DNA of 64,000 bases, taken from Candidatus Roizmanbacteria bacterium RIFCSPLOWO2_01_FULL_40_13. GTDB taxonomy: Bacteria > Patescibacteriota > Microgenomatia > UBA1406 > GWC2-37-13. The translations under genes and the position numbers were made by a program. The DNA lies in contig MGAN01000004.1 in the NCBI GenBank assembly GCA_001789745.1, positions 1 through 64,000 of the forward strand, given 5' to 3'. Positions 3,108-25,987 of the stretch are shown here, one piece after another. Within the stretch, counting starts at the first letter, position 1; each line of letters begins with the position of its first letter. The notes below the pieces were generated by a model. The model was not told the DNA's origin. It worked only from the letters and a program-made list of their open reading frames with translations, and ran no database searches.

Positions 3108-4301
3108 ATGAACTGGACAAAAAAGGAAAGAAAGATTTTACAACTTATCAAAAATAATCTAAAAAGCCCTTCGCATGGTCTGGATCATTTGATTAATGTG
3201 GCTAAATACGCTCTAATTTTGGGCAAAAAATATCGCGCCAATCGCGGGATTATTATTGCCGCAGCTCTGCTTCACGACCTGGGCCGAAATAATCCCAAGT
3301 TACATGGCAAAAAATCAAGCAGCCTCTCAGCCGTAAAAGCTAAACCAATTCTTATCAAAGCCGGTTATTCGAATAAAGAAATCGGTCTGATTTTGCAGAT
3401 AATCAAAGAGCATGACCTGCCCTTTTTTACCTCGAAGCTCCCGGAGTCCAGAATTCTCAAAGATGCAGATTTCCTCGACGGATTTGGTTTTAGAGGGATA
3501 CTTCGATCGGTTTATTTTACTTCGGAAGCAGGACAACCTATGTCAAAAGCTGAAGAGCGATTGACAGTCAAAATGCCCCAAAGATTTGCCGGACTAGAAT
3601 TTCCCGAAAGCAAAAATATCGCAAGACAACAGTATTATTTATCTAAAATTTTGTTTTCCGGTCAAAATAAATCTGCGGTACATACATTTAAGGAAAAACT
3701 TATTGTCTTCGAAGGAATAAGCGGCACCGGCAAAGAAACCCAAGCAAAACTGCTGGCGGAATTCTTGCAGAAAAAAGGCGAAAAGCCCGAGATCGTATAT
3801 CACCCGACCCCGGAAATGAAAAACATCCTCAAGCTCTGGCGCCAAAATAATAACGAGATTTTCTCCGAGGTCTTCTTTTTCCTAGCCGACCGGTTTGCTA
3901 TGGTTAAAAATAAAATCCTGCCGGCTTTGAAATCGGGTAAAACTGTCATCAGCTTACGAAATCCCATCAGCTCTCTTGTTTACCAAGCCGAAAACCAGTT
4001 TCACCTTGATTTGATCAATTACCTATATTCTACTTTCGACCCCCTGCCTGATATTGTCTTCTGGTTCGATATTAAACCTGAAGTTGCTTATCAAAGAATC
4101 GAAAGCCGGACAAAAAAAACCGGAGAGGAAAAAGGGAAATTCGAAAAATTAAATTTATTAAAAGCCAACAGTCAAAAATATATAAAAATTCTAAAAGAAT
4201 TCAAAAATGTGATTAGAATTGATGCAGAAAAATCTATTGACGAAATACACCAAAATATAGTAGACTCACTGGTGACCGTATGGCAAAAAAAGGGCATCTG
4301 A
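3108..4301 (+). CDS. HD-domain phosphohydrolase fused to thymidylate kinase-like domain
   Basis: N-terminal H..HDLGR HD motif; C-terminal VFEGISGTGKETQAKLL P-loop of the TMK family. Confidence 0.82.
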   Translation: MNWTKKERKILQLIKNNLKSPSHGLDHLINVAKYALILGKKYRANRGIIIAAALLHDLGRNNPKLHGKKSSSLSAVKAKPILIKAGYSNKEIGLILQIIKEHDLPFFTSKLPESRILKDADFLDGFGFRGILRSVYFTSEAGQPMSKAEERLTVKMPQRFAGLEFPESKNIARQQYYLSKILFSGQNKSAVHTFKEKLIVFEGISGTGKETQAKLLAEFLQKKGEKPEIVYHPTPEMKNILKLWRQNNNEIFSEVFFFLADRFAMVKNKILPALKSGKTVISLRNPISSLVYQAENQFHLDLINYLYSTFDPLPDIVFWFDIKPEVAYQRIESRTKKTGEEKGKFEKLNLLKANSQKYIKILKEFKNVIRIDAEKSIDEIHQNIVDSLVTVWQKKGI

Positions 4302-4846
4302 CCGTACTTGCCGGTTCCATGTTCGCCGGCAAGACTACCAAACTCATTACCTTGTACAGAGTATTTACAAAAAACGGATATAAGACTTTATGCTTCAAAG
4401 CAGAAGGAGCCGAAGTTAAAGATCGAAAAGGCAAAACCAACTCTCACGACGAACGGAATTTACCTGTCACCTTTATAGAGAATAATAAACCCCAGTTGAT
4501 CCTAAAAATAGTAAAAAAAGAAAGACCCGATAAGGTTTTGATCGACTCCGCCCAATTTTTCCCCGACAAAGCAACCAAAAAAGTCGTCTTTAAACTCCTG
4601 GATCAAGGAATTGACGTTGTGGTAAACGGCCTGCTTTACGACTACAGAAGAAAGTACTTTCGCCTTATGCACGAGCTTTTTGATCTGGCGGACGAGCGGA
4701 TGGAGCTATTTGCCATCTGCGAAAGGTGCGGCGCCAGAGCCAAAAATACCGAAAGAGTCGCAGGCGGCACCAAAAGGCTTGAGGCAACAAGCAAAGCCAA
4801 ATATATCGCCGTCTGCACCAGACACCACAAAATTTATAAAGGCTAA
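4280..4846 (+). CDS. tdk: Thymidine kinase (type II)
   Basis: GSMFAGKTTKL P-loop, DSAQFF, zinc-ribbon CERCGARA...C.RH. Overlaps the preceding CDS by 22 nt. Confidence 0.88.
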   Translation: MAKKGHLTVLAGSMFAGKTTKLITLYRVFTKNGYKTLCFKAEGAEVKDRKGKTNSHDERNLPVTFIENNKPQLILKIVKKERPDKVLIDSAQFFPDKATKKVVFKLLDQGIDVVVNGLLYDYRRKYFRLMHELFDLADERMELFAICERCGARAKNTERVAGGTKRLEATSKAKYIAVCTRHHKIYKG

Positions 4847-6955: not shown

Positions 6956-8188
6956 TCAACAAGAATCTGTAGGTTTAAAATCTTTTTTATACGAACCGAC
7001 TGCGTCACCTCCTGTATTCCCCTCCATCTTGTTGTCGCAGATTCGACCTTGTGGTTTGCGTTGGAATTTGATTCCGCCAGCAGCGTTGTCAATTATTACA
7101 TTCCCGTAGACATCGTTATCAATTCCATCCGAATCCTCATCTCCGCCTAAGCGGACACCTGCGCCTCTATTTCCTTTAATCTGATTGTAGCGAAAAACAT
7201 TCTTATTGCCGCGTGAGTCCATGCCGCCCGACTCGGGATCTTTTTGTCCGGTGCAATTGTTGTATTCGATAATATTTCCCGATGACCCCTCTTTAATATC
7301 TACACATTCGTTGCCTTGCGTATCGATCGTGTTGTGGTGCACATGGTTATTGTTGGACTGGTCGGGATCCGAGGTTGGACTTCTGCCGTCGTCTGTCTGT
7401 TCCGGGGCAGTGCCGATATAAACTCCTTCGCCGTTCTTGCCGCCTGCATCAAAGCCAAAATCAAAGACTCCACAACGGGTGATTGTGTTATATGCTATCT
7501 CATTACGGCTTGCAAAATATCGAAGCCTGATACACTCTCCCCCGGCGTTTTTCAGACTCAGCGAAAGTATTTTAACCCCGGTCTCTCCTTTCCCTGCCGT
7601 TTTACTGATGATATAAATTAATTTATCTCTGTAATCTTTTTCGCTTCCGCCCCCGCCATGCAAACCGTCAATGGTGAATCCTTCAAGGGTAATATAATTA
7701 TGATTGATCTCGAATATCCGAGAATTTCCTCCTCCACGGACAATTGCATTTTTCTCACCTTTTATAATTATCGGATTGGCGACTGTTCCGCTTCTTTTGC
7801 TTACCGCGTCCTGAAAATAAGCGCCCGGCAGTAGATATATCATCTCACCCGGCTGAGCAATATCAACCGCTTTTTGGATGGTTTTCAGGGCTGTTTCCTG
7901 CGAATCGCCACTATCGCCATCGTCTCCTCCTATAGCTACATAGATTGTTTTGCCGCTAAAACTTGGCTTTTTCGCCCGGACAGTAGGCTCTCCGGGAGTT
8001 ATCGCTTCAGAAGATTCAATAGTAGATTTTTCTTCTTCTGTGGCTACTTCCGGATTTCCTCGGACTATCGGCGTTTTCATAATTTTACTTTCCTGTTTGC
8101 TCTGATAAATCATGACAAACATAAATACAATGAATGCAGATACGACTCCATGGACAAAATAAATAAAGTATTGTTTAATAAATGTCAT
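6956..8188 (-). CDS. Right-handed beta-helix protein (DUF1565/PbH1; epimerase- or lyase-like), membrane anchored
   Basis: IYVAIGGDDGDSGDSQETALKTIQKAVDIAQPGEMIYLLPG plus PbH1-like repeats; N-terminal TM. Confidence 0.78.
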   Translation of the reverse strand: MTFIKQYFIYFVHGVVSAFIVFMFVMIYQSKQESKIMKTPIVRGNPEVATEEEKSTIESSEAITPGEPTVRAKKPSFSGKTIYVAIGGDDGDSGDSQETALKTIQKAVDIAQPGEMIYLLPGAYFQDAVSKRSGTVANPIIIKGEKNAIVRGGGNSRIFEINHNYITLEGFTIDGLHGGGGSEKDYRDKLIYIISKTAGKGETGVKILSLSLKNAGGECIRLRYFASRNEIAYNTITRCGVFDFGFDAGGKNGEGVYIGTAPEQTDDGRSPTSDPDQSNNNHVHHNTIDTQGNECVDIKEGSSGNIIEYNNCTGQKDPESGGMDSRGNKNVFRYNQIKGNRGAGVRLGGDEDSDGIDNDVYGNVIIDNAAGGIKFQRKPQGRICDNKMEGNTGGDAVGSYKKDFKPTDSC

Positions 8189-8236: not shown

Positions 8237-11128
8237 CTATTTCAATTCAAAAGCAGCTACATCGCTCTTGTGATTTTTTAAGAAGTAATTACTATTGGAT
8301 CGTAGATTGGTCAGGCCGCTTTGGATTTTGGCGTAGATACCGTGTCGGGTGTTATAGATAATTGAATTTGAGTCGAGCATATTGCCGTCTGCCTTGCCCG
8401 AAAAGTAAATCCCCACCTCATTTTGCTCCAGTTTATTATTGGTGGCCTGATTTTTGGCGGTTTTTACGTACATCCCTACCTGATTAAATGACAACTTGTT
8501 ATTATCAATTACATTATCGCTTGCTTCCTCATTAAGATAGATTCCGTATTGGGAGTTTTCCTTAATTTCGTTTTTTGTGATGACATTCTCTTTTGACTTT
8601 TTATCGGCCAGAATCCCTCTTCGATTTTTATTGATCATATTATTACTGATGGTGTTTTTACCGGAATTGTCAATGCTTATTCCGTCATGGTTAGCATAAA
8701 TATTGTTGTTCACAATCAAATTATTGTTTGATAATTCGTGAAGCATTATTCCGTGCAGTTTATTGTTGTAGGATTGATTATTTCTGATAGTAAAATCCGT
8801 GCAACGCTTGGAAAGAATCAGGCCGTGCGTACCGTTGCTGTAAAATTTATTATTCTCTACCAAAAATCCCGTTGAATCATCATGAGGATCCAAACCATAC
8901 CGTACGTTGTTGTAAAATTCATTATCTCTCCAGGTCATGCCGGTTGCACCATAGGTATAAGCGCCAAAATAATTGTCATGGAATTTGCTGTTGATTATCT
9001 CACCGGTCAAAAGATAAATTCCCAATTTGCCTGTACTCATTCTCCAGGATATTCCGTAAGAAGAATAAGGTAAATCTTTGGATCGTGCGAATCCAAGATA
9101 GGCAATTTCAGAGTCTGTCACATCCATCCTGGCATTATCTTTAACCAGAAGATAACTTCTCCCGTCCTCCAAATTCTTATCATAGTCGGCTGCGGTCTCA
9201 TCCCAACTGGTGATCTTAACCCCGTTTATTATCACGTCCGCATTTGAACCTCTTATCGAAACATAGCCTTTATTTGAGCTTGCCATCTTCAACCATTTAA
9301 CTTCATCTTTGTCAAGGAACAAAGTCGTGCCGGAGCGAAGTAGGATATTGGCACGCAACAACCAAACCTTAGGTTCCGTCTCCTGCAATAATTCTGAACC
9401 AAGCAGGGCGGAGATCTGACTTAAATTTGTCCCATAACCTCTACCCTCAACCACAATCTGATTGACATCAGGCACGTAGTAGATACGCAGATAATCATCA
9501 TAGATTCTTTGATAATTGAACTGGTAGCTTGGCGTAAGATTTAAGTCATGTGGAGGTACGGTAAGCAGTGTACCTGGCTTCATCCTATTCCAGTTGGTGA
9601 TCTTACTGACATTGGCATAAAGCAGATTATATACATTAACCCCGTATTGAGCGGCAACTCCGGCTAAAGAGTCGGTCTCTTGAAAAATATGGCCTTTAGT
9701 CAATTTTGTTTGTGGATCGGCTGCCGCTACCCCCAGGACATCGCTTTTATTGGACAGCGCTAAAGTTGATGATGTAGGTAATGTCCTTGCTACCAGGCTT
9801 GCCTGATTTTCCCTCGGGAGCAAAAAATTAGTGAATTTATTATAGATCACTCCTGATGCCACAACGCCAATCAGTATGATAGAAAACATATGCCCCCTGG
9901 CTAAACTATATAGTTTTCTCTGCGGCAATCGCGACTCATCCCAGCGGGTGATCCAACCCTGGACATTGACGCTAAACAGCGAGTATATCCTGATATAGGC
10001 CGACACAAAGGTAAAAACTATAAATATTGGCAGCATCCAGATATCGGCGGGGTGTTTTCGTAAGTGGGGATACATCTTAACCAGGCGGCTGATATGCCAC
10101 CAGACAAATATAACCCCAACCGGAATCCACAGTCCTAAAACCAAAGCTACAGAAAAATAAATTGGACTGATCAAGAGTGTAAAAGGCTGTATCGCTCTAT
10201 CAATCAGATAGATTGTAAATATTCTGTGTCTCAAAACCCATGGCTCGATAAATAAAGCCCGCAGGTCATTCCTCCAGCTGTTTCTGGTCCAACGCACCTG
10301 CTGTTTGAGAAATGTCAAAATATCCCTAACTCCCGTGGTATAAACTTGAGAATTGCTTTGATAAGTTGTTTTCCAGCCTTCTGCTTCGATGAGATAGGTT
10401 AACCTTTTATCCTCACCGCTTATCACTTTTTCACCCATAAAAACTTCGCCAACCATCCTGTCTAAAATCGGCATGAGCGCTTTGCTTCTATAGAACGCTG
10501 TTCTTCCGGATAGACAGACCAGCACATCTCCTGAAGCCGCCAGAAAGGGAATGTCGTCCCAATATCTCTGCTCAAGTCGGATGCTGAATAGTTTTTGAGC
10601 GATTGTCTTAGGTTTTTCTACCGACTGTCGGGTAGCCACGCCGCCGATTTTTCTATCGTTGAATGGACCGAGCGCATTTTTCAGCGTATCGCCGGCCCAG
10701 ATAGTATCGCTGTCAACTAAGGCCATAATTTCGCTCTTGGAAGCCCTTATTCCGTCAGCCAAAGCTTCACGCTTTCCCGGAGTTTTGGTGATGATTAGTT
10801 TGGTACCGGGAGTTTTTTTGGCAAAATCTTTAAATATCGAAATACAGTTTTTGTCTGTATGGTCTATGACTGCGATTATTTCATCTGGTTTGTTTCTTTT
10901 CCAAGACTCAATCGCACGGGAAAAAGTATCAGGATCCTCATTATAAACCGGGGTAACAACCGAAACCGAAGTTTCAAATCCGGGTCTTTTGGCTTTATAA
11001 AAAAGTCCGGTCGTTTTTTTGGCTATCCAAACACTCCAACGCCAAAATCCAATCAGCCCCAATGGAAGAAGAAACGGGTATAGATCTAAATACCTTGCTA
11101 GATAAAAATAAAAGTCGTTATTCAACAT
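8237..11128 (-). CDS. Processive GT2 synthase - LysM - AlgG-like C5-epimerase beta-helix fusion
   Basis: GT2: VTPVYNED, DSD, SGED, QQVRW and TMs; LysM-like GHIFQETDSLAGVAAQYGVNVYNLLYAN...GTLLTVPP; C-terminal PbH1 repeats with NNVRYGLDPHDDSTGFLVENN. Confidence 0.83.
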   Translation of the reverse strand: MLNNDFYFYLARYLDLYPFLLPLGLIGFWRWSVWIAKKTTGLFYKAKRPGFETSVSVVTPVYNEDPDTFSRAIESWKRNKPDEIIAVIDHTDKNCISIFKDFAKKTPGTKLIITKTPGKREALADGIRASKSEIMALVDSDTIWAGDTLKNALGPFNDRKIGGVATRQSVEKPKTIAQKLFSIRLEQRYWDDIPFLAASGDVLVCLSGRTAFYRSKALMPILDRMVGEVFMGEKVISGEDKRLTYLIEAEGWKTTYQSNSQVYTTGVRDILTFLKQQVRWTRNSWRNDLRALFIEPWVLRHRIFTIYLIDRAIQPFTLLISPIYFSVALVLGLWIPVGVIFVWWHISRLVKMYPHLRKHPADIWMLPIFIVFTFVSAYIRIYSLFSVNVQGWITRWDESRLPQRKLYSLARGHMFSIILIGVVASGVIYNKFTNFLLPRENQASLVARTLPTSSTLALSNKSDVLGVAAADPQTKLTKGHIFQETDSLAGVAAQYGVNVYNLLYANVSKITNWNRMKPGTLLTVPPHDLNLTPSYQFNYQRIYDDYLRIYYVPDVNQIVVEGRGYGTNLSQISALLGSELLQETEPKVWLLRANILLRSGTTLFLDKDEVKWLKMASSNKGYVSIRGSNADVIINGVKITSWDETAADYDKNLEDGRSYLLVKDNARMDVTDSEIAYLGFARSKDLPYSSYGISWRMSTGKLGIYLLTGEIINSKFHDNYFGAYTYGATGMTWRDNEFYNNVRYGLDPHDDSTGFLVENNKFYSNGTHGLILSKRCTDFTIRNNQSYNNKLHGIMLHELSNNNLIVNNNIYANHDGISIDNSGKNTISNNMINKNRRGILADKKSKENVITKNEIKENSQYGIYLNEEASDNVIDNNKLSFNQVGMYVKTAKNQATNNKLEQNEVGIYFSGKADGNMLDSNSIIYNTRHGIYAKIQSGLTNLRSNSNYFLKNHKSDVAAFELK

Positions 11129-11134
11129 TTGCTG

Positions 11135-12040
11135 TTATAAATTTGCTCCAATCACTTTATGTATGGCCAATCCATTGCCGTTGGCGATTGACTCGTTGAT
11201 TTTTATGATCGTCTTAAGGAGCGGCGCGTCTGCTCCGCTATTTCTGGTAAAGCGGTAAAAAGCTTTTGTATCTTTGGGCAGGCAATTCCCGGAAAAAGGA
11301 CCAAGATCTCTTATCCCGTAGCTGGAATTCCACATCCCTTCGGCCGAAAGAGCCGTAATTTCGAAGATTTTATTCATCCTTAACCCCGACTTCTTACCGA
11401 TTTCTCTCATCTCATTAAAAAAGGTAATTTTTGCGGAGTTGAAAAGATTGTGGACATATTTCTGGAATTCTGCCTCCTCAAGGCTGCTTCTGTAAATGGG
11501 AGACTTGAATTTTTTGTAAACCCCTTCCAGCATATCACCGGACTTTTTATCATATTCCCCGATCAGAATCACCCAAGGGTTAAGCGCGTCATCATAAGCT
11601 GTTTTTTCACGCAGGTATTCCGGGTTCATGCAAAGACCAAAGTCGTGACCCAACTTCCAGCCTGAATGTTTTTCTATGAGAGGCGCGACTATTTTCCTGT
11701 TGGTTCCCGGTGGAACGGTGCTTTTGACGACCACCAGATGGTATTTTTTTTTGGCTTTAGCAAGCCTTTGGCCAAGACCTGCTGAAGCCGACTTAATTGG
11801 TCCAAAATCTATCTGGCCGTCAACCGTGGGAGTAGGCACTGTCAGCATGCTGATATCAAAATCATACCCTCCGTCAAAAAGTTCATCTCTTTTATATGCC
11901 AAGTAGCCTTCTTTTCTTAGACGTGCCGTTTTCATCGGATTTCCGCCTAGAAAAGACGTGCTAAACCCCAGTCTGGCGAAAACTTTGCCCGTAGCCTGCC
12001 CAACAACACCTGGACCTATAATACATATTTTATATTTCAT
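11135..12040 (-). CDS. UDP-glucose/GDP-mannose dehydrogenase family, lacks canonical C-terminal domain
   Basis: GPGVVGQATG Rossmann motif, STVPPGT, catalytic GNCLPKDTKAF; only 301 aa. Confidence 0.82.
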   Translation of the reverse strand: MKYKICIIGPGVVGQATGKVFARLGFSTSFLGGNPMKTARLRKEGYLAYKRDELFDGGYDFDISMLTVPTPTVDGQIDFGPIKSASAGLGQRLAKAKKKYHLVVVKSTVPPGTNRKIVAPLIEKHSGWKLGHDFGLCMNPEYLREKTAYDDALNPWVILIGEYDKKSGDMLEGVYKKFKSPIYRSSLEEAEFQKYVHNLFNSAKITFFNEMREIGKKSGLRMNKIFEITALSAEGMWNSSYGIRDLGPFSGNCLPKDTKAFYRFTRNSGADAPLLKTIIKINESIANGNGLAIHKVIGANL

Positions 12041-12131
12041 AAAGTTTGATGTTGAATTATAAATAACAAAAATACAAAATACAATATATCATAGTATATT
12101 AATTACTATGGATGAGACTTAATTATTTCAT

Positions 12132-12215
12132 TGTTATTTTCGAGAGAGCGAAGCGGATCGAGGAATCCGTATCAATCGCCGCTGTTGGAGATTTCTCGAC
12201 AAGCTCGAAATGACA
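12132..12215. repeat. Interspersed palindromic element (TGTYAT...ATGACA type)
   Basis: TGTTATTTTCGAGAGAGCGAAGC...GCTCGAAATGACA. Confidence 0.6.
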
Positions 12216-12313
12216 TTTATGCCCCGGTCACATTAATCATTATAAAAATGTGGGTTGACTTGGATTGTGATTTATGCCACAATGAAATTACATATAAGTT
12301 TTACTATAAACAT

Positions 12314-12724
12314 ATGAAAAGTTTATCCTTTTTAATAATATTATTGCTTATTTCTTTGTGGTTATTCATACCTAAGTCAATATCTGCCGCCCAATGTCTT
12401 GCAACTAAGCCTGATCATGCGCCCGACCTCTTCCAAATCGATATCAACAAAGGCTCGGCAACACTATATTTTACTCCGGTCAACAACGCCGTAACCAACT
12501 ATACTATAGTCTATGGGCTGTCACGTGGGGACGAACGCTGGGGAATATCCTTTCCTTATGGCGTTTATCACGGAGTAATCAACTATACTGTAAATCATCT
12601 GTCACCTAATACAAGGTATTACTTCAGAGTTAGGGCTGACAACGGTTGTCGTCAGGGATTTTGGTCAGATACTCTGTCGGCCCGAACAAACTGGCACTTC
12701 AAGATGTATACGAGAGTGAAGTAA
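12314..12724 (+). CDS. Secreted fibronectin type III-like protein
   Basis: Signal peptide; LYFTPVNNAVTNYTIVYG...NHLSPNTRYYFRVRADNGC. Confidence 0.65.
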   Translation: MKSLSFLIILLLISLWLFIPKSISAAQCLATKPDHAPDLFQIDINKGSATLYFTPVNNAVTNYTIVYGLSRGDERWGISFPYGVYHGVINYTVNHLSPNTRYYFRVRADNGCRQGFWSDTLSARTNWHFKMYTRVK

Positions 12725-12789: not shown

Positions 12790-14073
12790 TTATTTATTTG
12801 CTGGATTTATTTGTATTATTTGTCGGATTTGCTTATTTGTAGTATTCAAAAAGTCAACTACCCTCCTCCACCAATTATAGATCGGATTTTCGCTTGATAC
12901 GCTCAATACTACGTCCCGCTTAATATCTTTTTCCTTTGCTGCCCTAACCGGAAAATTAACCGATACGAATCCTTTTTTGCTGAAAGTCAAGGATTCTTCA
13001 TTGATTATCGGTATTGCGTAAATTCCGTTTTTAACAAGAAATCCGATATCGGTCATTTTTAAATTAACGTCCTTTATTAAATTTCCCTTGGAGTCGATTA
13101 TTCTCCCGTAGACATTGACCGGATTATAATACTTCTCCAAAGCAGACGCAGCCAACCGCGGTGAATTATCATTTTCCCAAAGCCTGGTACTGCTGGCGTT
13201 ATAGGTCCAATAATTGACAGCTATTACTTTGCCCGTTTTAATCGTTCTGTCAAGCGCCTCATCTATCCATGACGCCTGTTGTTCTTCGCTCAAATCACCG
13301 TGTATGTCCGGAATCGGAGCACCAAACTCTCCCAATACAATTTTACCTCCGCTTTGCTCTGCCAGTTCAACAATGTCATTTTCCAGTTTTTCCGGTGTGC
13401 TGACATAATGATCGATCGTCACTGCGCCGTCCAATTTTTCGGTCGTTTCCCTATCCATAATCAATCTGGCAACGTCTCCGTTCATCGAATAAAAATTAGC
13501 TTTTACTTTTTTACCAGTCTGATCAAATCCCTCTTTTACTGCTTTGTATTCTGCCGCAATAAAATTTCGAAATCCCTCAATATCCCTTGTTTTTCTGGGG
13601 TCTCCGGGACCTCCGTTTTCACATTCGGGGCAGGACGTAAAGACATCCCCGTCTTCAAACAAATCGGGATTGCTGAGAATAAAATTTTGAATTTTGCCTA
13701 TATGAGTGCTTCTGTCAATTCTCGGATAGTCAAACCACTCTTCCCAGCCGGCGAGATTGCCGCGGAACCAGACTTTGAGTTTGTATTTTCTGGCTGCCGT
13801 AACCCATCTTTTAAGATACGGTAAAAATTCATCTTCATAAGGAGTGCCAAGCGAAACATGGGTCGCTCCTGTAGCCGCAATATTTTTAACCTGGGTTTCA
13901 ATTTCTTGATTAAATGTGTTATCTTTTAATTTTTCTCTGGCCAAATCCCGCGAATACTTCATCGTATCGACAGACTGAACCTGGAAAAAACGCTCACGGG
14001 AGTGTACCGGCGAAGTAAAGATTAGAAACAAACTTATCGTAATAACTAGTTTTTTAAGCATAATCTTCTTCAA
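12790..14073 (-). CDS. Secreted TIM-barrel glycoside hydrolase-like protein
   Basis: Signal peptide; KVWFRGNLAGWEEW, VTIDHY, IVLGEFGAP, VNYWTYNASSTRLW. Confidence 0.65.
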   Translation of the reverse strand: MKKIMLKKLVITISLFLIFTSPVHSRERFFQVQSVDTMKYSRDLAREKLKDNTFNQEIETQVKNIAATGATHVSLGTPYEDEFLPYLKRWVTAARKYKLKVWFRGNLAGWEEWFDYPRIDRSTHIGKIQNFILSNPDLFEDGDVFTSCPECENGGPGDPRKTRDIEGFRNFIAAEYKAVKEGFDQTGKKVKANFYSMNGDVARLIMDRETTEKLDGAVTIDHYVSTPEKLENDIVELAEQSGGKIVLGEFGAPIPDIHGDLSEEQQASWIDEALDRTIKTGKVIAVNYWTYNASSTRLWENDNSPRLAASALEKYYNPVNVYGRIIDSKGNLIKDVNLKMTDIGFLVKNGIYAIPIINEESLTFSKKGFVSVNFPVRAAKEKDIKRDVVLSVSSENPIYNWWRRVVDFLNTTNKQIRQIIQINPANK

Positions 14074-18639: not shown

Positions 18640-20598
18640 TTAAAAAGTAACGGGTATGGGTTTTTTGGTCGACGTCACGGTGTCCCAAACTATGGCTTTT
18701 TTAGAATTTTGCTTTTTCCGGTGAACTTTCTTGACTGTATATTTTAGTACAAGCGCGCTTAAAAATAAAAACGGGTTCTGGCTAAAAGCCTTAACTACTG
18801 CCAATACCTTGTATTTCATCGGCATTTTATATTTGTCTTTTATCCAGCTGCCAAAAATCATCTCCATCTTCTTCCTGTCGGATCCTGTTCTTGTCGTTTG
18901 AGCGATGTAGTCTGCTAAATTGTTGGGTTTCCGATACAGGATAATGGCATTTTTGGCAAAAGCGAATTTTAGATTTCCTGCTTGGCTTAAAAGATATAAA
19001 TACCGTCCGTAGGAATGCACCTCGGGCGGAAAATCGACCTTACTGGCAAAATCTTTAGTTAACGCTATGCAGCAACCGCGGACATTGTGCAGATTATCGC
19101 CATTATTATAACCTATCCTGGCAAGATACCAGATGTAAATTCCGTAGTTTATAATTTTGCCGACTAATGTCCTGCTTTTTACCGGTTGGTTGTTTGCAGA
19201 CACCAACACGGTTTTTTCGTCAGCAAAACAATTCACTACTTCGGCTATTACCTCGCTTTTGCCTAGGACAATGTCTCCGTCTAAGGCCAGGGCAATGCCG
19301 CTTGTGTTAAGTCCAAAAAACTCCTCCAGCCTGTTGATTTTTCCCAACCTTTTGCCGTCGTCTATCAGACGAATAACCGGAAATTTTTCCGCCATTTTTT
19401 TGACCTTGCCGATTGTCTCATCTGTCGATCCGTCGTTTAATATATAAATTGTTTCCAGGCTATAGTTTAAGTCTTTTTGTCGAAGGATGGATTTTATTAA
19501 ATTCTCGATGTTCCCGGCTTCATTGAAAGCCGGTATTCCAATCGAAACGGATTTTTTTTGCTGGTGTTCAAACCTATTATTATTCTCAAATTTCTTAAAC
19601 TCTGGTTTTAGACAAAATTTAAAAAAGTCAATCCACCCAAGAATTATATTTTGGGAAAATCCTGATCCGGTTAAGCCGTGAGTTACGGAATTAATCGCAT
19701 AGGCCTGAAAAAGCTCACTGAAGTTTTTTCTCTTGCTGTTTCTCTTCACCAACTCCTGCAGAAGAAGCTGGGCAAAATTGCTTTCTTTATGCCTGCTCCA
19801 AAAATATCTTAATGTAGTAATATATTCGTGCAGTGGTTCGGAAAAAACCATCTGTTGAAAATCTATGAGATAATACTTGTCTCTGGTTTTAATAAAATTT
19901 TTAAAATGCAGGTCGCGATGAATGAGTGATGACTGATTATTTTTAATCATTATCGGTATCAGACGGAAAAAAATAAACGCTCCTTTTAAAAGATAAGGAA
20001 CGGCAAAGGGGTAAGTTAAAGCCGCCTTAACCCAAAGCAACGGGTAAAATAAAATATAATTTAGAGTGCTTCTTTGCGAAATTCTGGCTCTTTCTCTTTT
20101 TTTTAATTCGCTCCCTAGATATTTAAAATAATCGGCAGCGGTTAGGTACAAATCTAATTTTTCTTGAGATGTCAGGTTTTCTACAGTTTTACCCTCGACA
20201 TGTTCGATTAAAGCAACGAGCCTGTTTTTATCTTCATAAGCTGTAATCAGCCATGGAATAGCAATGTTTTTAAATCTGTCGGGGATGGAGTCTCCCGTTT
20301 TCTTTGTTACGGCGTTCAGGATCTTATACATCTCGATTTCATTGAGGAGCGAATAGTAGTGATACCCTTTTATGTTAGCCCGCTTCATCTTGGCAAAGGC
20401 TTTTTTACCGCTACCGTCTTGATAAAGGGCCAACTGGTATGACTTGCGCGGTCCTACTTTCTTTACTCTTTTAACAAAATAATAATTTCCGATTTCGGCT
20501 GGGAAAACAGGCTGCTTTGCTTTTTGAAACTTTTTCAAAAATTCAGCCAACACGGTCATAAGCAACATCGTGAATAAGTCGTACGGTCTGCTTTTCAT
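18640..20598 (-). CDS. Sugar/lipopolysaccharide kinase-like domain fused to GT2
   Basis: Kinase motif LIHRDLHFKNFIKTRDKYYLIDFQQM in N-terminal half; GIPAFNEAGNIENLIKSIL, LNDGSTDET, DGD in C-terminal half. Confidence 0.78.
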   Translation of the reverse strand: MKSRPYDLFTMLLMTVLAEFLKKFQKAKQPVFPAEIGNYYFVKRVKKVGPRKSYQLALYQDGSGKKAFAKMKRANIKGYHYYSLLNEIEMYKILNAVTKKTGDSIPDRFKNIAIPWLITAYEDKNRLVALIEHVEGKTVENLTSQEKLDLYLTAADYFKYLGSELKKRERARISQRSTLNYILFYPLLWVKAALTYPFAVPYLLKGAFIFFRLIPIMIKNNQSSLIHRDLHFKNFIKTRDKYYLIDFQQMVFSEPLHEYITTLRYFWSRHKESNFAQLLLQELVKRNSKRKNFSELFQAYAINSVTHGLTGSGFSQNIILGWIDFFKFCLKPEFKKFENNNRFEHQQKKSVSIGIPAFNEAGNIENLIKSILRQKDLNYSLETIYILNDGSTDETIGKVKKMAEKFPVIRLIDDGKRLGKINRLEEFFGLNTSGIALALDGDIVLGKSEVIAEVVNCFADEKTVLVSANNQPVKSRTLVGKIINYGIYIWYLARIGYNNGDNLHNVRGCCIALTKDFASKVDFPPEVHSYGRYLYLLSQAGNLKFAFAKNAIILYRKPNNLADYIAQTTRTGSDRKKMEMIFGSWIKDKYKMPMKYKVLAVVKAFSQNPFLFLSALVLKYTVKKVHRKKQNSKKAIVWDTVTSTKKPIPVTF

Positions 20599-23002: not shown

Positions 23003-25987
23003 TTACGCCAAGGTAGAATTTCGCGAAGGCGGATTAAATAATTTCATACTCTTATCCGCGCTTTTTTGCCAATCGAAGTTTTTCGCCCACTCTAAAGCCC
23101 TTTTGGAAAATTCGTTTCTTAAGTTATTATCTTTTATCAGTAACTCAATCTTTTGAGCGATTTCCTCGACGCTGCCGTAAGGAACCAAAAAACCGCTGTG
23201 GGGATTAAGTACCGAATCGCGAAGGCCCGGTACATCTGATGCCACAACCGGAGTCCCGCAAGCATTGGCCTCAATCGATGTTATCCCGAATCCCTCCATC
23301 ATTGACGGATTGACAAAAACCCATGACCTCTGGTAGAGTCTAACCTTTTCTTCTTCGCTTACTTTTCCTCTAAATTCTATTTTATCCAAAACCCCTATTC
23401 TTTTTGCCAGATTCATCAGCCCCTTTTTTTCTTCACCAAATCCCGCGATAACAAATCTAGCCATAGGTATAAACTTAAGTATTTTTTTGGCGCTGCGGAT
23501 CAAAATATGCAAACTTTTATAGAACTGCAGTCTTCCGATATAAATGATCAAGGGTGAATTGCTTTTAACTCCGGGTTTAAATTTGTCAAGATCTACGCCG
23601 TTGTAGATAATCACGGGTTCGATTTTTGTCAGTCGTTTATCCATTATCTCTTTTTTTGAGGATGGTGAAACAGTAATAATCTGTACTTTTCTATAAACAT
23701 AAGGCATCAACCCCAACTCCAAAAACTCTGCCAGCCCCGCCATCGGGGCAATCAAACTTTTGCGAAAGACTTCCTGATGGATATGATGAATGAGTAAAAA
23801 TTTCTTTTCTTTGGCATACAATGGCGTGAAAAAAGGAATTCCGTTCTCGCAATCTATGATGATATCGAAATTGCCTCTGAATTTCAGAAGATAATAAATA
23901 AATCCCCAAAGATATACCGTGTAAAATCCGCCTCTTCGGACTATCCAAACTCCGTCGATAGCTTCATTTCGCATGCAGTGTCCGTCGTTGCCGCAAAACA
24001 AAGTAACCATGTGACCTGCCTTAACCCAACGCTTGGCTAATTCGTGCGTATAAACCTCGGCGCCTCCGGCAAATTTGTGTTTTGTGTCACGCCAATTAAA
24101 AATTAAAATTCTCTTTTTCTGCCTTTTTTCTTGTTTTAATTTTTGCGGTTCAAATTTTAAGACGTCAAACAGGTCAATTAAGTTTCGGCCAATAAATATA
24201 GCTTTTACTGTCAGGTAACGGAAGATTCCGTAGATAAAATTACCCGATGATCTTTTTTTGGGAATAGGTTGAAAGTATTCATTATTAAAACTTTTGTTCG
24301 CAACACCTGTTTCGGGAGCGAAGCTTCTGGCAATGAGTTTTTTCTTTATAATTTCTGTTGCTTGCTGCATTGTTTTTTCATCTTCGTAGTGAAATCCGTG
24401 TACAGTCTTAGGCCAGAAGTGAGGGCGCCGGATTAACTGGATTATGGCTTTCCAGGCGGCAATACTCATAAAAACCCAGTAAAAAGGAATCAGGTAGACG
24501 TATTTGACCAGATCGTATTGCCCGCGTCTGACACAGGCTATCATGTAGTAATACATGTAGAGGAAGTTGCCGAAAACCAAAGAAAAAGTGCCCAGATAAA
24601 GTATTATTCCCGGGAAAAACTGCTCGATAAAAGGACCCGTAATCGGCCGAAAGGCAAAATAGGCAATGGTGGTCAGCCACATCAGCGGGTTGAAAAACAT
24701 GAATAATACCTTGCCTCCGATAAAAATCTGGAAGATCAGGTGCTTGAAATGGGAATTATTTTTGACAAAACCATTCTTATCTCTTGTGTGGACAAGATAG
24801 GTTTGGATATAGCCTTTGATCCAGCGGGTCCGCTGTGCAAACCAGTTATTGACATCGCTGTTGGCCTCTTCGAGAGTATCGGAGTTGATGATGGCGGTAT
24901 GATAACCGTGCTTCACCAGCCGCATCCCCAGATCTGCGTCCTCGGTGACATTGAATGAATCCCAACCCTTAAGCTTTTTCAAATCTGCCGTTCTAAAGTG
25001 ATTTGAGGTTCCGCCCAAAGGAATTGGAGCATAAAGTGACTGTAGTCCGGTCAAGACCAGATCAAACCAGAGCGCGTATTCTGCCGTAAAAATACGGGTC
25101 AGCAGATTCTGCTTGGGATTGTAGAAATTCAGCTTGGCCTGCATGCAGACCGTATCGGAGCTGGATTTTTTAAATGCAAGGATTACCTTCTTGAGTTGAT
25201 CCGGGTCCGGTATATCCTCGGCGTCATAAACTACGATATATTCGCCGCGGGCTTTCTTTAAACCGTAATTAAGAGCCTTAGGTTTGGTCTTGGGCAACGA
25301 GTGGGGGACGATGACGACCTCAAAATAATCCGGTAGCTGGTATTTCTGGATATATTCTTTAGTTTGCTTATCGTCTTCTTCCAAAAGCAGCATCACCTGC
25401 AGTTTATCCTTAGGGTAATCCAGTCTTGACATGGCAGTAATAAACTGCGGTACGACCTCCCACTCGCGATACAGCGGACAAAGAATTGTATATTTAGGAA
25501 GTTTTTTGTCAGCCAATTTTTTCAATTCCGGTTCGTTAATCTTGACTTGAGGATTTTTGGTAAAACCTCGAAACACCAGGTACAAGTTCAGTAACAAATC
25601 GACAAAGTATGCGATGGTGATCCCGGCTATAATAATTACCGCTGTAAAAAGCCAATCAAAAATGAAACCGGTAATTATCGTGACAGCAATGAGCAATAGA
25701 ATTAATTTCTGATCCGGTATCAAAGTCTTAAAAGCGCTTTGCTGATAGGGAAGATCGCTGTGGTGGATAAATTCCTGTCCTTTGTAATAAAATCCCTTGC
25801 CTTTCCTTTTAGCTACAGGAGGCGTAAATGAAATAGGTTTGTGAGTGAGTTTAAATTTGAAGATGGAAAAAATTCTTTTAATTTTATCAATTAAGAATCG
25901 GTTTGTTGTCTTTTGATCTTTTACTACAGGTTTAAATATGGATCTTACTTTTTTTATATAGTTTGATAGATTAGGACTTATTTTCAT
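23003..25987 (-). CDS. Fused GT2 (cellulose synthase-like) and GT4 glycosyltransferase
   Basis: GT2: CPLYREWEVVPQF, DAEDIPD, EDADLG, QRTRW and TMs; GT4: AGGAEVYTHELAKRW, YIGRLQFYKS, NPSMMEGFGITSIEA. Confidence 0.85.
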   Translation of the reverse strand: MKISPNLSNYIKKVRSIFKPVVKDQKTTNRFLIDKIKRIFSIFKFKLTHKPISFTPPVAKRKGKGFYYKGQEFIHHSDLPYQQSAFKTLIPDQKLILLLIAVTIITGFIFDWLFTAVIIIAGITIAYFVDLLLNLYLVFRGFTKNPQVKINEPELKKLADKKLPKYTILCPLYREWEVVPQFITAMSRLDYPKDKLQVMLLLEEDDKQTKEYIQKYQLPDYFEVVIVPHSLPKTKPKALNYGLKKARGEYIVVYDAEDIPDPDQLKKVILAFKKSSSDTVCMQAKLNFYNPKQNLLTRIFTAEYALWFDLVLTGLQSLYAPIPLGGTSNHFRTADLKKLKGWDSFNVTEDADLGMRLVKHGYHTAIINSDTLEEANSDVNNWFAQRTRWIKGYIQTYLVHTRDKNGFVKNNSHFKHLIFQIFIGGKVLFMFFNPLMWLTTIAYFAFRPITGPFIEQFFPGIILYLGTFSLVFGNFLYMYYYMIACVRRGQYDLVKYVYLIPFYWVFMSIAAWKAIIQLIRRPHFWPKTVHGFHYEDEKTMQQATEIIKKKLIARSFAPETGVANKSFNNEYFQPIPKKRSSGNFIYGIFRYLTVKAIFIGRNLIDLFDVLKFEPQKLKQEKRQKKRILIFNWRDTKHKFAGGAEVYTHELAKRWVKAGHMVTLFCGNDGHCMRNEAIDGVWIVRRGGFYTVYLWGFIYYLLKFRGNFDIIIDCENGIPFFTPLYAKEKKFLLIHHIHQEVFRKSLIAPMAGLAEFLELGLMPYVYRKVQIITVSPSSKKEIMDKRLTKIEPVIIYNGVDLDKFKPGVKSNSPLIIYIGRLQFYKSLHILIRSAKKILKFIPMARFVIAGFGEEKKGLMNLAKRIGVLDKIEFRGKVSEEEKVRLYQRSWVFVNPSMMEGFGITSIEANACGTPVVASDVPGLRDSVLNPHSGFLVPYGSVEEIAQKIELLIKDNNLRNEFSKRALEWAKNFDWQKSADKSMKLFNPPSRNSTLA

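Follow-up and report, generated by a model that had tools for sequence, protein, structure and literature searches.

A polysaccharide synthase fused to an AlgG-type epimerase points to a compact alginate-type exopolysaccharide operon in Candidatus Roizmanbacteria

Why would a bacterium with a single membrane carry a polysaccharide synthase and a putative C5-epimerase on one polypeptide, and which polymer would such a protein make? The question is raised by a gene in a 64,000-nucleotide stretch of Candidatus Roizmanbacteria DNA (hereafter the window), which a sequence-only reading had described as an Alg8-like synthase, a LysM segment and an AlgG-like epimerase joined in a single protein. The gene is an uninterrupted open reading frame with an ATG start, 963 codons and no internal stops, and all three parts do lie on one chain. 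The features of the locus are as follows.

8237..11128 (-): 963-aa fusion of a GT2 synthase, a LysM-like domain and a predicted AlgG-type C5-epimerase (open reading frame, domain searches)
9788..11128 (-): membrane synthase module, residues 1-447, with TM helices and GT2 domain (Pfam, NCBIfam, structure, hydropathy and charge)
9554..9715 (-): LysM-like domain, residues 472-525 (PF01476, model)
8324..9487 (-): AlgG-type right-handed beta-helix, residues 548-935 (NF038177, PDB AlgG, VIA-align)
8879..8890 (-): DPHD motif, D747-P748-H749-D750 (alignment to 4nk6)
11135..12040 (-): putative short two-domain GDP-mannose/UDP-glucose 6-dehydrogenase, 301 aa (PF03721 and PF00984, no PF03720)
6956..8188 (-): putative membrane-anchored PsAly-type beta-helix lyase, 410 aa (profile search, VIA-align, active-site residues)

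The sequence-only reading had proposed a search for the same fusion in other CPR genomes, and this search was positive. Within the order, 12 of 83 genomes and 9 of 43 genera have the fusion, as do two genomes (G328 and G395) from a different family elsewhere in the phylum, and a chance or assembly artefact was rejected on the basis of this distribution. Named carriers include Roizmanbacteria, Levybacteria, Daviesbacteria and Chisholmbacteria, the contig of the last stopping inside the fusion gene, and one genome (G006) has three copies; these whole-genome statements rest on family searches. A second copy at L032:9189-12111 (-) is split into two overlapping frames, one with the GT and the beginning of the beta-helix and one with the remainder, and could be a pseudogene, a frameshift or an assembly error. 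A viral source of the fusion was also rejected, as a scan of viral sequences turned up GT2 matches that were all weak (32% at best). In the literature searched, we found no published report of alginate synthesis in CPR bacteria or of a synthase-epimerase fusion of this type; as far as that literature shows, the architecture and the host are new, and the enzymes are all members of known families.

An alignment of 17 homologues shows the fusion to be conserved, and the same 17 rows were the input for an AlphaFold2 model. The mean pLDDT of the model is 84.9 and its pTM is 0.54, a low value because of which the placement of the two halves relative to each other is not set by the model. A flexible linker is predicted near residues 443-470, followed by a long beta-helix that runs to about residue 934. 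Comparison with the PDB using VIA-align ranked AlgG highest (4nk6, Z 37.2, 363 residues, 2.3 Å), then hyaluronan synthases (Z 33.0 over model residues 19-444) and AlgE4 (2pyh, Z 29.8), and the Foldseek ranking concurs.

The synthase module matches PF13641 at 4e-26 and PF00535 at 1e-16 (Pfam), NodC at 6e-29 (NCBIfam) and, in a PDB sequence search, the Chlorella virus hyaluronan synthase at 1.5e-11. The GT2 motifs noted earlier (DSD, GED and QQVRW) were confirmed and are conserved across the family alignment as DSDT (D139/D141), GED (238-240) and QQVRW (276-280), together with W-TRW (392-396; WITRW in the window copy). The DxD, GED/TED and QxxRW signatures and the membrane channel fold of the model are those of a GT2 of the hyaluronan synthase/NodC type, and the module is predicted to be processive. 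The label "Alg8-like", by contrast, had to be dropped. Although Alg8, which works with Alg44 in alginate synthase, carries out the reaction that is proposed for the fusion (polymerisation of GDP-mannuronate, GDP-ManA) and has weak GT2 similarity to it (about 24%), three Alg8 candidates from Gammaproteobacteria gave no NodC match at 1e-20, and Alg8 has a branch length of 4.4 in a GT tree built without the NodC and hyaluronan synthase sequences themselves. Alg8 orthology is unsupported by these results; judged by sequence, the synthase is of the NodC/hyaluronan synthase type and true Alg8s are distant. In the same tree the fused GTs form one group (support 98/98).

The general topology of hyaluronan synthases served as the template for orienting the fusion. 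Positive charge follows the first TM helix and recurs in two loops (351-363 and 386-408); the hydropathy profile has only one hydrophobic helix after WITRW. Based on this analogy and the charge pattern, the GT domain is probably inside the cell and the C-terminal domains outside. The hyaluronan synthases of Chlorella virus and Xenopus, as well as NodC, likewise have a GT2 core, QxxRW, a WxTR gating motif and TM helices that form a secretion channel. The fusion differs from them in its shorter N-terminal membrane part, in apparently having only one TM helix past the gating motif with the C-terminus outside, in the added LysM-like and epimerase domains and in its donor sugar, which we infer to be GDP-ManA.

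The claim of a LysM segment stood in part. In the window copy, PF01476 scores 18.0 bits (E 0.0028) at residues 483-525, which is under the 20.9-bit gathering cut-off, but 13 of the 17 orthologues match the family (E up to 0.01, best 6e-9) and residues 478-524 of the model have the beta-alpha-alpha-beta order of LysM. The domain may tether the protein to the wall or to the polymer.

The AlgG-like assignment of the C-terminal half was upheld. The beta-helix matches PF13229 at 1e-37 (Pfam), the NCBIfam AlgG family NF038177 at 1.1e-43 over residues 558-839 and the PDB sequence of AlgG (4nk6) at 4.5e-32 over residues 557-866. Its score against NF038177 is 149.7 bits where the equivalog cut-off is 700 bits and, by sequence, the domain is an AlgG homologue rather than an equivalog. 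The DPHD motif aligns with D317-D320 of Pseudomonas AlgG and falls within the superposed AlgG-like fold. The conservation of its His and Asp, put forward earlier as a check, is complete: no full-length CPR copy departs from YG(L/F)DPHD (YGLDPHD in the window copy), while the flanking coils vary. Neither of the two outcomes that the sequence-only reading had named as refuting it was observed. At the position of AlgG Arg345, nearly all CPR copies have Lys (SKRC) and one (L036) has Val, with Gln in Streptomyces and Glu in Pseudonocardia; the Arg expected of a strict AlgG orthologue is absent from the CPR copies. These positions were read with the roles that we take Arg345 and His319 to have in AlgG. 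The Val-containing copy, from G395, is the most divergent CPR fusion; it keeps YGFDPHD, and SVGC replaces SKRC, leaving neither of the basic residues near the Arg345 position. Pseudomonas AlgG has the same right-handed beta-helix, N-terminal region and YG-DPHD motif. However, it is a separate periplasmic protein of a two-membrane cell, working with Alg8/44/K/E/X, and the fusion domain is only 22-24% identical to it, has Lys for Arg345 and is fused to the synthase. In the epimerase tree the fused epimerases are probably one group (support 67/96). A second, free-standing 605-aa epimerase in Daviesbacteria (L044:5046-6863 (-)) clusters with Streptomyces epimerases and not with the fused ones. Taken together, sequence and model suggest that the domain is an epimerase of the AlgG type whose DPHD active-site motif is intact and whose activity is predicted.

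For a uronan, the chief evidence comes from two neighbouring genes that the sequence-only reading did not mention, one for the short dehydrogenase and one for the protein of alginate lyase type. The dehydrogenase gene lies 6 bases upstream of the fusion, also on the minus strand. All 17 homologues have PF03721 and PF00984, and the C-terminal domain PF03720 was found in none of the 17; in this genome PF03720 occurs only in a separate full-length UGD gene (G000:C8). A frameshift was rejected as the cause of the short form because all 17 homologues end early, and the catalytic residues C253, K256 and D257 are invariant among them. The best profile match is AlgD (1mfz, 1.2e-65), against 6.5e-57 for UGD. 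In BLAST comparisons with three AlgD candidates taken from alg8/algG loci, the enzyme scored 39-41% for two and 33% for the third, and it is 28% identical to the full-length UGD of the same genome. In the dehydrogenase tree the short enzymes, AlgD and UGD fall into three groups whose closest pair is not decided, so GDP-mannose is favoured, not proven, as the substrate. A ManC-like guanylyltransferase encoded at G000:C14 is a candidate for GDP-mannose supply. Of 12 fusion genomes, 11 have the short dehydrogenase, against 0 of 80 others (Fisher p 2e-13); in the lone exception, G017, the contig is only 3 kb.

The lyase-type gene lies 48 bases downstream of the fusion, again on the minus strand. 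The best PDB match of its profile is the alginate lyase PsAly (6kfn, 3.9e-10), and its model superposes on 6kfn with Z 34.3, the next structure reaching 30.8 (VIA-align). In PsAly, Tyr184 and Lys221 are catalytic and Glu181, Glu216 and Asp219 are metal ligands (PMC6796002); Y257, K299, E254, E294 and D297 of the window protein correspond to these residues and all are invariant. An N-terminal membrane helix is predicted, suggestive of an anchored alginate lyase. Among the relatives, the gene occurs in 5 of 12 fusion genomes; six genomes carry it, one of them without the fusion.

Several other genes nearby deserve mention. A 427-aa secreted protein with no Pfam match (12790-14073 (-)) is conserved (51-66%) next to the fusion in several relatives; inspection by eye suggests a TIM-barrel hydrolase, and the motifs CPEC and LGEFGAP are present. 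A small secreted fibronectin-III-like protein (12131-12724 (+)) has homologues (34-79%) adjoining the fusion in many genomes. A 994-aa polypeptide (23003-25987 (-)) combines a membrane GT2 with a GT4 glycosyltransferase, and a 1549-aa relative of it is found near the fusion in L029. By eye, the 652-aa product of 18640-20598 (-) has a kinase-like N-terminal part and a GT2 domain, and the 397-aa product of 3108-4301 (+) an HD-type domain and a thymidylate kinase; the gene after the latter (4280-4846) encodes a thymidine kinase.

A similar gene set occurs in Actinobacteria. In Streptomyces and Pseudonocardia, the GT (about 40%), the AlgG-type epimerase (about 35%) and the short dehydrogenase are encoded by separate neighbouring genes; in one Actinomycetota MAG (L046/L138), two homologues of the lyase (54% and 41%) accompany them. 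These clusters, including that of Streptomyces ruber, share with CPR the short dehydrogenase, the GT2 family, the AlgG-type epimerase and sometimes the lyase, but synthase and epimerase are unfused. A search of 396 further Actinomycetota returned an 814-aa fusion of opposite order (L181:7323-9764 (-)), with the epimerase at 91-365 (AlgG 4e-25), the synthase at 455-797 (NodC 4e-40) and a short dehydrogenase directly upstream. Both domain orders fit an epimerase outside the cell because the first TM helix of the synthase runs from outside to inside, and two fusions of opposite order argue for selection of epimerisation at the channel exit. An apparent 987-aa fusion in L182 was rejected because of a frame change in the GT and an apparent signal sequence on the epimerase itself.

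Our reading, to which we give a probability of roughly three in four, is that this monoderm CPR bacterium, of the Microgenomates type, has at the locus a compact operon for an alginate-type exopolysaccharide, with epimerisation at the synthase exit. The short dehydrogenase would convert GDP-mannose to GDP-mannuronate, which the GT2 module would polymerise in the cytoplasm while threading the chain out via its own membrane channel. On the same polypeptide, the LysM-like domain and the AlgG-type beta-helix would sit outside at the channel exit, where the beta-helix would turn some D-mannuronate into L-guluronate as the chain emerges, and the anchored PsAly-type lyase would trim, release or clear the polymer. 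Coupled polymerisation and epimerisation of a uronan had been suggested from the sequence alone; the physical coupling stands, the two modules being fused and conserved in a single-membrane lineage, and the polymer and the activities are predictions.

The polymer could be of another kind. Known NodC and hyaluronan synthase members use UDP-sugars; with a GT resembling these enzymes and a full-length UGD encoded in the genome, the product may be a glucuronan-type polymer. The product would then be another polyuronate (e.g., a chain of glucuronan or hyaluronan type, made from UDP-GlcA), the epimer L-iduronate or another sugar, and the short dehydrogenase would act on UDP-glucose, which is common in these cells; its family matches UGD well too. 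We consider this unlikely, as the genome already has a separate full-length UGD, the short dehydrogenase matches AlgD best and has the length and motifs of the proven brown-algal GDP-mannose dehydrogenases (PMC4782291), and the epimerase and the lyase both best match mannuronate enzymes.

The beta-helix could also do something other than epimerise. Its catalysis may have been lost or changed, leaving a lyase, comparable to the dual epimerase/lyase enzymes, or a mere polymer-binding cap. The residues at the Arg345 position fit such a change, and an epimerase/lyase structure (8ja4) superposes as well (Z 27.0, VIA-align), but YG(L/F)DPHD persists in every full-length CPR copy amid varying coils and a dedicated lyase already adjoins the fusion; we give this only a slim chance. 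It is hardly credible that the domain serves as a surface protein of the NosD or adhesin kind without any part in polysaccharide chemistry. Pfam reports NosD at 2e-29 along with generic beta-helix matches, yet NCBIfam (AlgG 1e-43, NosD 4e-18) and structure (Z 37, compared with 27.7) place AlgG far ahead, and the beta-helix occurs joined to a synthase in either order.

The gene set also resembles the alginate pathway of brown algae. The enzymatically proven GDP-mannose dehydrogenases (GMDs) of Saccharina have 315-320 aa, GxGxVG and GGxCLPKDV motifs and an incomplete N-terminal Rossmann fold, and their Val17 and Pro257 differ from other bacterial GMDs (PMC4782291). The window enzyme (301 aa) has GPGVVG (V12) and Pro248 five residues ahead of the catalytic Cys, is gapped in the N-terminal Rossmann fold relative to AlgD (profile alignment) and fits the short brown-algal type as matched to the published description. 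A 2024 study found the brown-algal GMDs closest (40%) to a Woesebacteria (CPR) protein and the ManC5-epimerases closest to Actinobacteria, and reported that no Alg8 homologue exists in brown algae and that their mannuronan synthase had yet to be identified (PMC11468063). The algal pathway thus shares with the CPR set the short GMD (GxGVVG, Pro before Cys, shortened Rossmann fold) and a DPHD epimerase (PMC4782291, PMC11468063), and the SjAly/PL41 lyase has the Tyr/Lys/Glu/Glu/Asp set of PsAly and of the window lyase (PMC6796002); no synthase-epimerase fusion is reported from brown algae. Judging likeness from published descriptions, we hypothesize that the algal genes descend from a CPR/actinobacterial set. 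Tentatively, and with real doubt, CPR and some Actinobacteria may hold a third alginate machinery, distinct from Alg8/Alg44 and consisting of a short GMD, a mannuronan synthase of the hyaluronan synthase type that carries its own extracellular epimerase on the same chain, and a PsAly-type lyase. This set may be the counterpart in prokaryotes of the brown-algal pathway, mannuronan synthase included, and could be its source.

Because algal GMDs are likewise short and the closest relative reported for them comes from CPR, the CPR synthase is a good bait for the brown-algal mannuronan synthase, and we offer this sequence family for finding it. Alginate synthesis is known from brown algae and from two-membrane pseudomonads, and in the latter an envelope-spanning complex is needed. 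A one-protein synthase-epimerase in a one-membrane cell with a genome of about 1 Mb would amount to a minimal alginate machine, and CPR cells would gain a defined, testable surface polymer.
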